DNA of 64,000 bases from Sanguibacter suarezii NBRC 16159 (GTDB lineage Bacteria; Actinomycetota; Actinomycetes; Actinomycetales; Cellulomonadaceae), in assembly GCF_001552735.1 (NCBI RefSeq), contig NZ_BCRT01000021.1, positions 248,001 to 312,000 on the forward strand, in the 5' to 3' direction. A model generated the notes under the pieces. That model made no database searches. It worked only from the letters and a program-made list of their open reading frames with translations, and was not told where the DNA came from. Shown here piece by piece: positions 38,063 through 42,854 of the stretch; the stretch's first letter is position 1, and every line of letters starts with the position of its first letter. The translations under genes were made by a program, and so were the position numbers.

Positions 38063-40050
<1,988 letters not shown>

Positions 40051-40130: not shown

Positions 40131-40252
40131 CCGCCGAACTCGTGAACCACCCGCCGAACTCGTGACCCTTCAGCCGAACTCGTGAGCGAGGGCCGTTTCT
40201 CGGGGCGGTCCCGGGCCTGGCTCACGAGTTCGCGGATCGCTTCACGAGTTCG
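40131..40252. repeat. Left array of 20-bp repeats (three direct, two inverted)
   Basis: The core CGAACTCGTG occurs at 40135, 40155 and 40175 in forward orientation, then as CACGAGTTCG at 40223 and 40243. Units step by exactly 20 bp, and a 38-nt centre separates the two halves. Around the centre CGAACTCGTGAGC (40175-40187) pairs perfectly with 40220-40232, so a large hairpin is possible. The TGA in the three forward units falls in three different frames. Apart from the array, the 329-nt gap 40051-40379 holds only GC-rich sequence and the start region of the nuclease gene. Confidence 0.9.
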
Positions 40253-40379
40253 GGGAGGGGTGGGCACGGGTGCGGGTGCAGGTGGGTACGGGTTGTGCAC
40301 AGGGCGGGCGGGGGCGGCGTCGTGCACCGTGTGCCCGACGCCGGGGCTCGCTCGAGGGTGTGCGGCGCACCGTAGGTGG

Positions 40380-41309
40380 ATGCGCACTCTCCTTCCGCTG
40401 CCGCCGCGACCCTTCGAGGGCCTCGCGCCCACCATCCTCGCGCCCGGGTCGCCGCGGCGGCCCTATCGTCCGGGAACGGTCACGCCGCTCTATCGAGGGT
40501 GGTCCTGGGTCCGGCCACCGGGGCCGTCCAAGAGCACCGGGCTCGCCGCACGGGCTCAGTCGACCGCGACGATCGCGGCCGTGCACGCCGGTCTGCGCAC
40601 CGAGCACTGGTTCTACGCAGAGTCCGCCGCGCTCATCTGGGGCTGCGACGCCGTCGGCCTGGACGGGCAGGTCCACCTCGTGCAGCGCCACAACCAGCAG
40701 CGCGGAGCGCATCCCGATGTGCGGCGCCACTCGGTGACGCTCACGGCGGGCGAAGTCTGCATCGTGGACGGCTATCCGGTCACCACGCTGGGGCGCACAG
40801 TCGTCGACTGCGCCCGTCTGCTGCCCCCGCACCGGGCCGTGGTCATCGCCGACTCGGCGCTGCGACGCGGGCTGACGGTCGAGGACCTCGCCGAGTCGCT
40901 CCGCCTCGCAGCCGGGCGGCGCGGGATCTGCCGCGCCCGCGACGTGCTGTCTCTTGCTGACGGGAGAGCGGAGTCCCCCGGGGAGTCGTGGCTGCGCCTC
41001 GTCGCCGCGCACGGAGGCCTGCCCGCGCTCGAGCTGCAGATCCCGGTCCACACGCACCTCGGGCTCAAGTACGTCGACCTGGGCTGGTCGGAGTCCAAGG
41101 TGGCGGTCGAGTTCGACGGGCGGGTCAAGTACGAGGGCGGGGATGGTGGAGCGGCGTTCTACCAGGAGAAGCGGCGTCAGGACGCCTTGGAGGAGCGTGG
41201 GTGGCTCGTCGTCCGCGTCATGTGGGAGGACCTCCACCAGCCCGACGCCGTCGTCACCCGCCTCTGGGAAGCCCTCCGCTCACAGCAACGCCGTCGCGCC
41301 TCCCGCTGA
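40380..41309 (+). CDS. AbiEi-like / DUF559 (Vsr-like) endonuclease-domain protein
   Basis: 309 residues from ATG 40380. The N-terminal ~190 residues resemble the AbiEi-type antitoxin family (WFYAESAALIWG, TTLGRTVVDCARLL, VIADSALRRG). The C-terminal ~110 residues form a Vsr/DUF559-type PD-(D/E)XK domain with Glu202 (GESWLR), Asp233 (YVDLGW) and Glu244-x-Asp246 (AVEFDG), followed by KRRQDALEERGW and VVRVMWEDL. The nuclease residues look intact. No toxin partner is adjacent. Both sides carry mirror-image 20-bp repeat arrays, which makes this look like a self-contained element. No ribosome site is evident, and longer starts inside the left array are possible. Confidence 0.8.
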   Translation: MRTLLPLPPRPFEGLAPTILAPGSPRRPYRPGTVTPLYRGWSWVRPPGPSKSTGLAARAQSTATIAAVHAGLRTEHWFYAESAALIWGCDAVGLDGQVHLVQRHNQQRGAHPDVRRHSVTLTAGEVCIVDGYPVTTLGRTVVDCARLLPPHRAVVIADSALRRGLTVEDLAESLRLAAGRRGICRARDVLSLADGRAESPGESWLRLVAAHGGLPALELQIPVHTHLGLKYVDLGWSESKVAVEFDGRVKYEGGDGGAAFYQEKRRQDALEERGWLVVRVMWEDLHQPDAVVTRLWEALRSQQRRRASR

Positions 41310-41322
41310 CCAGCAGCCCCCA

Positions 41323-41440
41323 CGAACTCGTGAAGCGGACGCCGAACTCGTGAGTGAGCAGTCTTGCGCCAGATTCAGACGGCCCTGGCGCACGAGTTCG
41401 GCAAACGGTTCACGAGTTCGGCGGATGGCGCACGAGTTCG
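41323..41440. repeat. Right array of 20-bp repeats (two direct, three inverted)
   Basis: The same core lies forward at 41323 and 41343, and inverted at 41391, 41411 and 41431, again with 20-bp steps and an identical 38-nt centre. It is the mirror arrangement of the left array. In two of the inverted units the T before CACGAGTTCG is replaced by G. The centre holds an 8-bp inverted repeat TGCGCCAG / CTGGCGCA (41365-41392). Confidence 0.9.
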
Positions 41441-41486
41441 GGAGGGGGAGTTCGGGAGAGGGGCGGATCGGGTCGGGTGGGGCGGG

Positions 41487-42854
41487 TCAGGCGATGGTGG
41501 TGCGGTCTTTGGCTTCTTGGACGCCTAGGCCGTCGGCGACCTCGCGGCGCTTGCGGGGCTCGTCGGGGCGGGCCGGGCCTGCGGGGAGGGCGCCGGGGGT
41601 GGCGTAGGTGACCTCGACGTGGGGGCGGTGGAACATCTGGTACTTCACCGTGTACTCCCAGTTACGACGAGTCCAGATCGCGGCGCCCACGGCCACCAGG
41701 ATCGCGGTGATCGACCCGATGCCGATCGACCAGCGTGGTCCGAAGGCCTCGGCGATCCACCCCACGATGGGCGAACCGATGGGCGTCGCGCCCATGAAGA
41801 CCATCATGTAGAGCGCCATGACCCGGCCGCGCATCTGCGGGTCCGTGGTCATCTGGATGGTGCTGTTGGCCGCGGTCATCATGGTCAGGCTCGCGAAACC
41901 GACGGGGATGCTGGCCAGGGCGTAGGTGAGGTACGTCGGCATGAGCGCCATCGCTCCAGCGGCCACGCCGAAGGCGAAGGCCGACCCGATGACCAGGCGC
42001 ACTCGCGGGCGCTCGCGGCGCGCGGCGAGCAGGGCGCCGGCCAGCGACCCGATCGCCAGGATCGACCCGAGCACCCCGTACTCCCCCGCACCCTTGCCGA
42101 ACTCCTCGGTCGCCATGACCGCCGACGTCAGCTGGAAGTTCAGGCCGAAGGTCGAGACCACGCAGACGACCACCATGATGACGATGATGTCGGTGCGGTT
42201 CTTGACGTAGCGCATCCCTTCGCGGATCTGTCCCTTGGCGCGCGGGGCGATCGGGAGCCGGTTGAGCTCGTCGACGCGCATCCGCGTCATGGCGAAGATC
42301 ACCGCGGCGAAGGTCAGGCCGTTGATGACGAACATCCAGCCCGGGCCGAAGGCCGCGATGAGCAGACCGGCGAGGCCAGGCCCCACCAGGCGCGCGGCGT
42401 TGAAGCCCGCGGAGTTGAGGCCGACGGCGTTGGAGAGCTTCTCGGCCGGGACCATCTCGGCGACGAAGGTCTGACGCACCGGGTTGTCGAAGGCGGTCAC
42501 GCACCCGAGCAGCGTCGCGAAGATGTAGACGTGCCACAGCTCCGCCTTGCCGGAGAGCACCAGCAGACCGAGGGCGAGGGCGAGCACGCCCAGCGCCGTC
42601 TGGGTGAACATCAACAGCTTGCGCCGGTCGACCCGGTCGGAGACGACGCCCGCCCATGCAGAGAGGAACAGCACAGGCGCGAACTGCAGTGCGGTCACCA
42701 CACCGACGGCCACCCCGGAGTGGTCGGTGAGCACCGTGAGCACGAGCCAGTCCTGGGCGACACGCTGCATCCAGGTACCGACGTTGGCCACGAGGGCGGC
42801 GCCGAACCACAGGCGGTAGTTGTAGTACCTCAGGGAGGCGAAGGTGGGACTCAT
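41487..42854 (-). CDS. MFS transporter (EntS/MFS_3 type)
   Basis: 455 residues with twelve predicted membrane helices. The loop-2/3 motif is GVVSDRVDRRKLLM, and motifs NVGTWMQRVAQDWLVL and FDNPVRQTFVAEMVP are typical of the MFS_3 / enterobactin-exporter-like family. The C-terminal ~50 residues are a polar cytoplasmic tail. It is co-transcribed with and overlaps marR (ATGA), so it is probably a MarR-controlled efflux pump. The substrate is unknown. Confidence 0.88.
   Translation of the reverse strand: MSPTFASLRYYNYRLWFGAALVANVGTWMQRVAQDWLVLTVLTDHSGVAVGVVTALQFAPVLFLSAWAGVVSDRVDRRKLLMFTQTALGVLALALGLLVLSGKAELWHVYIFATLLGCVTAFDNPVRQTFVAEMVPAEKLSNAVGLNSAGFNAARLVGPGLAGLLIAAFGPGWMFVINGLTFAAVIFAMTRMRVDELNRLPIAPRAKGQIREGMRYVKNRTDIIVIMVVVCVVSTFGLNFQLTSAVMATEEFGKGAGEYGVLGSILAIGSLAGALLAARRERPRVRLVIGSAFAFGVAAGAMALMPTYLTYALASIPVGFASLTMMTAANSTIQMTTDPQMRGRVMALYMMVFMGATPIGSPIVGWIAEAFGPRWSIGIGSITAILVAVGAAIWTRRNWEYTVKYQMFHRPHVEVTYATPGALPAGPARPDEPRKRREVADGLGVQEAKDRTTIA

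Follow-up and report, generated by a model that had tools for sequence, protein, structure and literature searches.

The window analysed in this study is a stretch of 64,000 nucleotides from Sanguibacter suarezii NBRC 16159 (genome G000, contig C21:248001-312000). It carries a nuclease gene that is flanked on both sides by an array of the word CGAACTCGTG and lies between serC and an MFS transporter gene. The features are as follows.

38923..40050, + strand: serC (phosphoserine transaminase), left neighbour and border of the site; adjoins the MFS gene in four congeners
40132..40255, no strand: left dyad array (>>><<), three forward copies (40135, 40155, 40175) and two reverse copies (40223, 40243) of CGAACTCGTG
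40380..41309, + strand: nuclease gene, 309 aa, with an AbiEi-like middle part and a C-terminal REase_MTES_1575/DUF559-like part
41320..41443, no strand: right dyad array (>><<<), two forward copies (41323, 41343) and three reverse copies (41391, 41411, 41431) of CGAACTCGTG
41487..42854, - strand: MFS transporter gene, right neighbour and border of the site; convergent with the unit

The outer borders of both arrays were placed 3 nt outside the words, and the words alone span 40135-40252 and 41323-41440. A sequence-only reading of this stretch had reported ten exact copies of CGAACTCGTG around one gene, three plus two on the left and two plus three on the right, with steps of exactly 20 bp inside every run. 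All ten were found at the claimed positions with the claimed steps, and 48 bp were measured across each centre. When up to one mismatch was allowed, CGAACTCGTG matched 21 times in the window against 7.6 expected, a number that was reached by 0 of 100 shuffles. The two centres had been described as identical; they share the length of 38 nt but not the sequence. The description of the arrays as inverted counterparts was confirmed, as the arm at 40134-40196 is complementary to that at 41379-41441 at 86% of 63 positions. In an ungapped comparison, the arrays were 73% alike when inverted versus 58% when direct. The word, its fixed spacing and the dyad suggest protein sites lined up on the same face of the helix.

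The nuclease gene most likely starts at the ATG at 40380. This start is backed by the aligned start of a 68% identical ortholog, and longer open starts would extend into the left array. The gene had been read as a Vsr-like PD-(D/E)XK protein of the AbiEi/DUF559 type. The AbiEi assignment held up, with a match to the PADLOC AbiEi models (E 1.5e-11, residues 94-184) that was stronger than the nuclease matches, which were weak and under the Pfam cut-offs (MTES_1575, E 9e-6; DUF559, E 0.0016). In an alignment of 37 homologs, D233, E244, D246, E263, and R266 were invariant, and G247, Y251, G274, D284, and R294 were also kept. The PADLOC AbiEi models matched all 37 homologs. A Pfam scan of the same set (E 0.01 or better) found REase_MTES_1575 in 26, DUF559 in 4, AbiEi_4 in 8, and AbiEi_1 in 1; the sole other family was DUF2378, and the Y1 (HUH) transposase domain of the IS200/IS605 type was absent from these matches. 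A search of solved structures with the protein gave no sensible match (ribosomal S20 near E 0.03). A structure model built from two sequences had a pLDDT of 36, and the DNA-binding part was not visible in it.

We compared the serC-MFS site among the congeners. S. gelidistatuariae ISLP-3 (G005) has the identical order serC-array-nuclease-array-MFS, and the identity between G000 and G005 is 68% for the nuclease, 91% for serC, and 89% for the MFS protein. Both nuclease loci known in G000 are common to these two genomes. In all four other congeners (G001-G004), serC lies directly beside the MFS gene, and both a nuclease match and an array are missing between them. Syntenic genomes without the whole unit, which the sequence-only reading had proposed to look for, thus exist. 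The empty site holds no array in any of the four, and these congeners carry arrays with other words elsewhere, such as CGAGTTCGTGA in G003. The suggestion of a self-marked defence gene found no support: the neighbours of the window gene are serC and the MFS gene. A toxin partner, the nucleotidyltransferase AbiEii, is not among these neighbours.

Arrays were also found beside homologs in other genomes. We examined 28 homolog loci from other genomes of the family, which were picked by similarity alone with at most 10 candidates scored per genome. Their flanks carry arrays at 19-20-bp steps with differing words, including CGAGGTCGTC, CGAGATCGAC, CGAGTTCGGC, CGAGATAGAA, CGAGTACGAG, CGAGCAAGCG, and more. 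A strict motif-free detector found an array beside the gene in 23 of the 28 loci and on both sides in 13, compared with 1 of 560 shuffled flanks and 2 of 123 other genes. The negative loci were L123, L134, L135, L137, and L138. The detector misses degenerate arrays, some of which are visible by eye at L134, L138, and L148, and its positive call at L133 depends on an unusual word. The 28 loci are not independent because L143 and L144 are 99% identical and many loci represent one syntenic locus. Within a locus, the upstream word is the same as the downstream word, and words differ between loci. Among distant homologs obtained by profile search in eight genomes, 14 of 25 loci had no array. The occurrence of the gene without arrays in relatives, raised by the sequence-only reading, is therefore found mostly among distant homologs, and close relatives mostly have arrays. 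In the genome G037, a distant homolog (L171, C1:44115-44762) has TGTGGAGCGTT at 20-bp steps on both sides, and a close homolog (L152, C20:18864-19739) has GCCGTACAT upstream. A match in a Rhodospirillaceae MAG was a plain 10-bp tandem with no dyad and was discarded.

Many of these 28 homologs occupy the same chromosomal place, which is kept across genera. In the genus g20, the flanks are mostly 89-96% identical, and the nuclease genes are often unalignable as DNA. We examined the relationship between word and enzyme at 12 syntenic loci, two of which come from a different genus or from further away and have flank identities of about 80%. Word distance correlated with nuclease distance at r 0.50 versus 0.13 with flank distance, and a partial Mantel test of word and nuclease given flank gave r 0.53 and p 0.0002; this set omits the syntenic loci L123 and L133, which have no clear word, and one pair has no flank value. 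Over 28 of the 37 aligned homologs, word and nuclease distance correlated at r 0.51 (p 0.0005), with L043, L044, L048, L050, L051, L123, L133, L135, and L137 omitted. The words for both tests were read by eye from the flanks of the loci. An exchange of the gene could carry its flanking arrays along, and solo arrays are therefore a stronger support than the distance test.

Dyads consisting of two words and a mirrored half were searched genome-wide in Sanguibacter, and 22 were found in G000, 20 in G005, and 0 in the other four congeners. For the sequence-only reading, arrays scattered widely with no link to this gene family would have counted against its interpretation. The scatter is present, but the link is not missing, as the arrays are tied to the nuclease family. 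Among 119 genomes, a same-direction pair of the word matched only in G000 and G005, and a backward control gave 0 matches. Arrays of the window's family have three to six words each, and the centre including its words measures 58 nt in G000 (19 of 22 arrays) and 57 nt in G005 (20 of 20). This one-base shift from G000 to G005 runs through the whole genome, shared sites included.

Solo arrays with the word of a resident nuclease were found in G000, G005, G155, and G156 (two families each) and in G003. G155 is a complete genome in which we found 14 arrays of CGAGGTCGTCGGTT, counting the flank of the nuclease at 258.7 kb, and 30 arrays of CGAGATCGGTCG, counting the flanks of the nuclease at 1748.5 kb. 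G156 has at least 15 CGAGTTCGCCGGTT arrays, together with CGAGATCGGTG around a second nuclease match on C111. The second pair in G000 is CGAGGTCGTCTATC with a nuclease on C7, and the ortholog in G005 has the altered word GGGTCGTCTATT. All six arrays found for family B in G005 lie within 131 kb of contig C17, and two of them border its nuclease; the 62-nt core is the same in four of the six, and a fifth has one base changed. The word CGAGGTCGAGGGTT occurs in G155 and G156 with no cognate among the nuclease matches listed there, and it flanks the nuclease of G181. We read the CGAGGTCGAGGGTT arrays in G155 and G156 as relics.

The position of the solo arrays was examined as well. In G155, 4 of 13 solo arrays in one family (p 0.008) and 4 of 28 in the other (p 0.11) lie within 150 kb of their own nuclease, which is significant for one family, and the median distances to the nuclease were not significant (0.08 and 0.17). 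For the comparison of filled and empty solo-array sites, the three spacers with an array in one of G000 and G005 and no array in the other were too diverged for a useful alignment, and no target duplication was seen at them. In the close pair G217 and G218, three arrays compared by position (two on one stretch and one further) are present in both genomes, and none is polymorphic; the G217 array at C4:447379 could not be placed in G218. Two borders with family-A arrays in G000 C6 (L064:4955-7055) hold family-B arrays in G005 (C17:153819 and 159584; L215 and L216). The DNA between these two arrays is about 2 kb in G000, with an AraC-type regulator and a short-chain dehydrogenase, and about 5.7 kb in G005. 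Further paralogs with a one-sided array-like repeat are L050 (G000 C8:59324-60085) and L051 (G005 C13:103989-104708), with the other words TGCGTGACTT and GTGCGTGCAT.

We searched 221 genomes of the family for a general pattern in which two CGAGNTCG copies at a distance of 18-21 bp are followed by their inverted form. A match was found in 198 genomes; 79 genomes had at least ten matches and 47 at least twenty, and the median was 6. These counts are matches and not arrays, one array yielding up to three, and chance matches contribute to the low counts, some of them evidently in coding-like sequence. A backward control, which does not mimic codon use, gave 18 matches in 10 genomes. Genus g20 contributed 81 genomes. 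A close ortholog, defined by a cut-off of E 1e-57 that was chosen from the data, occurs in 11 of them, and their match counts range from 55 to 126 (median 90). The median was 8.5 in 32 genomes with a weaker match and 3 in 38 genomes with no match at 1e-40 (rank test of 11 versus 38 genomes, p 6.7e-7). The exceptions are G188 (75 matches) and G193 (70), which have no close nuclease, and G137 (116), which is in the weaker-match group. In the genus of the window, G001 has 53 matches (20 forward and 33 reverse), and its best nuclease homolog reaches only E 1e-11; the enzyme may have been lost with the arrays left behind, or there may be a gap in the 110-contig assembly. G001, G187, G188, G189, G193, and G196 are known by match counts, not by individual arrays. 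The pattern was also present in 106 stretches of viral contigs, 0 of which were confirmed as relatives, and a phage origin was set aside. One unnamed PHROGs family matches 4 of the 37 homologs.

The sequence-only reading had compared this organisation with REP/BIME sites around RAYT transposases. It has been reported that RAYT genes are flanked by two REPs, coevolve with them, stay at fixed places, and diverge faster than their neighbours (PMC2817692). The RAYT enzyme is described as single-copy and vertically inherited (PMC8049555), and REPs as placed between convergent or unidirectional genes (PMC3733652). The comparison proved apt in that gene and repeat are linked and diverge fast together, each enzyme has its own word, and solo copies occur at other places. 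In both systems, the gene lies between two copies of a repeat whose cognates are abundant elsewhere, one repeat type belongs to one enzyme, enzyme and repeat coevolve, and the enzyme at a fixed locus outpaces its neighbours in divergence. However, the enzyme here is AbiEi plus PD-(D/E)XK-like, whereas RAYT is a Y1 (HUH) transposase of the IS200/IS605 type. The words begin with CGAG or CGAA and lack the GT(A/G)G head, and the arrays are multi-site dyads without arm compensation. REPs, in contrast, are reported to stay palindromic. The system is thus like REP/RAYT in its working but not a member of it, because its enzyme is not the Y1 transposase and its arrays are not the compensating hairpins that define REP/RAYT.

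Two other known systems share parts with the unit. For AbiEi proteins, binding to inverted repeats of 23 bp has been shown, with a single pair of repeats in one instance and two pairs in a second (PMC7319586). An AbiEi-type protein, matched by PADLOC in 37 of 37 homologs, connects the unit with type IV AbiE toxin-antitoxin systems. Unlike those antitoxins, the protein has a nuclease-like C-terminus and no toxin partner beside the window gene, and its putative sites occur genome-wide at gene 3' ends rather than solely at its own promoter. The homologs resemble Vsr-like/DUF559 nucleases by their REase_MTES_1575 (26/37) and DUF559 (4/37) matches, although the window protein itself scores below the Pfam cut-offs. 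We consider it probable that the array-nuclease-array unit is the home of a dedicated enzyme together with its DNA element, in a REP/RAYT-like partnership built on an unrelated nuclease.

The array positions also bear on an unlikely alternative, in which the arrays would be host sites that act as operators, as insulators, a role also raised by the sequence-only reading, or at the transcript ends of convergent genes. The AbiEi-nuclease would then be a dedicated regulator, also of its own gene, and the arrays would have multiplied by ordinary recombination. In G000 and G005, 30 of 49 arrays lie between convergent genes; of the 237 spacers without an array in these stretches, 28 have such a position (odds ratio 11.8, Fisher p 1.6e-12). 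The 49 are clusters with two or more words, with four single-word clusters excluded. The corresponding numbers in G155 are 21 of 41 versus 6 of 73 (p 4.5e-7), the 41 excluding two arrays that fall inside a called gene, and 13 of 19 family-B arrays in G000 and G005 lie between convergent genes. Gene orientation was taken from a simple unvalidated caller, which puts the start of the window gene at 40581 and not at 40380.

This placement fits host sites, as does the binding of AbiEi proteins to inverted repeats in their own promoters (PMC7319586). The persistence of pattern matches in G001 without a close nuclease points the same way. Exact words are also kept at about nine sites common to G000 and G005, though the rest of the array at seven of them is no more alike than at unrelated sites (p 0.23), a result that both descent and re-insertion fit. 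On the other hand, invariant catalytic-type residues and a rapid turnover of words between close species would be odd for a host regulator. The identical arrays of G005 point to recent copying, and the whole unit is missing at the serC-MFS site of the congeners.

Less probable still is a selfish homing-type nuclease that cuts arrays or array-like sites. Repair would copy the gene in, the gene would end up between two arrays, and the solo arrays would be landing pads or footprints. Homing endonucleases of the Vsr-like fold are known in phages, which lends this explanation some support. At three loci, the upstream and downstream arrays match at 100% identity (64 bp at L046 and 69 bp each at L140 and L146), and beyond this stretch the match is lost within about 4 nt. 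At one locus, the nuclease alleles of L121/L122 and L125/L129 differ by 35-48% of residues and the flanks by 3-5%, as if the gene had been replaced. However, L125 and L126 are alike in both (nuclease 6% and flanks 4.5% different), the gene stays at the same locus in different genera, both nuclease loci are common to G000 and G005, and no viral relative was confirmed.

We also examined whether the two arms of an array vary together. Within-array matches numbered 175 versus 182.7 in shuffled arrangements for G000 (19 arrays), 185 versus 191.3 for G005 (20 arrays), and 256 versus 276.6 for G155 (21 arrays). Since no compensatory arm pairing was found, the arrays look like double-stranded DNA sites and not like RNA hairpins. 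An Rfam search of 8 loci gave four microRNA matches only, all below the family cut-offs (best E 4e-8, a long palindrome). That the arrays are RNA hairpins, serving as bidirectional terminators or mRNA-end stabilisers with an incidental nuclease link, is highly improbable: they do sit at gene 3' ends and their outermost palindromes could fold, but the arms in three array sets, the Rfam result, and a nuclease link far above control stand against it. In the CGAGATCGGTCG arrays of G155 (L173-L192 and L212), own arms were less alike than foreign arms, with 99% of shuffles at or above the observed value. These arrays look as if perfect palindromes were avoided.

In the partnership of a dedicated enzyme with its DNA element, which we prefer, the enzyme would bind, cut, and copy the arrays. 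The AbiEi-like part would read the array words, about two helical turns apart and mirrored about the centre, as double-stranded DNA. This reading would position the PD-(D/E)XK part on the array. A cut or nick at the array, followed by host repair, could occasionally place a copy of the array (about 70-120 bp) at other sites, and new copies would survive mainly at gene 3' ends. The enzyme would be inherited at fixed places and change fast, the word would change with it, and solo arrays of earlier words would stay behind.

There is about an even chance that these arrays form a class of interspersed repeats in Actinobacteria that is driven by an enzyme and arose independently. In such a class, a nuclease with an AbiEi reader would copy its own dyad arrays, the word would be repeatedly replaced at a fixed locus, and orphan arrays would record earlier words. 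In the literature covered, which was full text largely from outside subscription journals, we found no description of such arrays or of their link to an AbiEi-nuclease. We also found no paper joining DUF559 with AbiEi, nor one joining DUF559, inverted repeats, and Actinobacteria. A REP survey counts palindromes by tool in a few Actinomycetota, and Cellulomonas is missing from its text (PMC12306157). Arrays of this kind may sit among the counts of that survey in other genomes (PMC12306157).

REP/RAYT is the known lasting partnership of an enzyme with small repeats. If our reading is true, a second, unrelated enzyme has entered a genome-wide partnership with repeats, such partnerships arise repeatedly, and why they last becomes testable. 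The partnership would be frequent in one actinobacterial family, with at least ten pattern matches in 79 of 221 genomes. The pairs of enzyme and word that vary by species at one locus are a ready set for working out an AbiEi-type recognition code. Many of the intergenic repeats in these genomes would also be explained.
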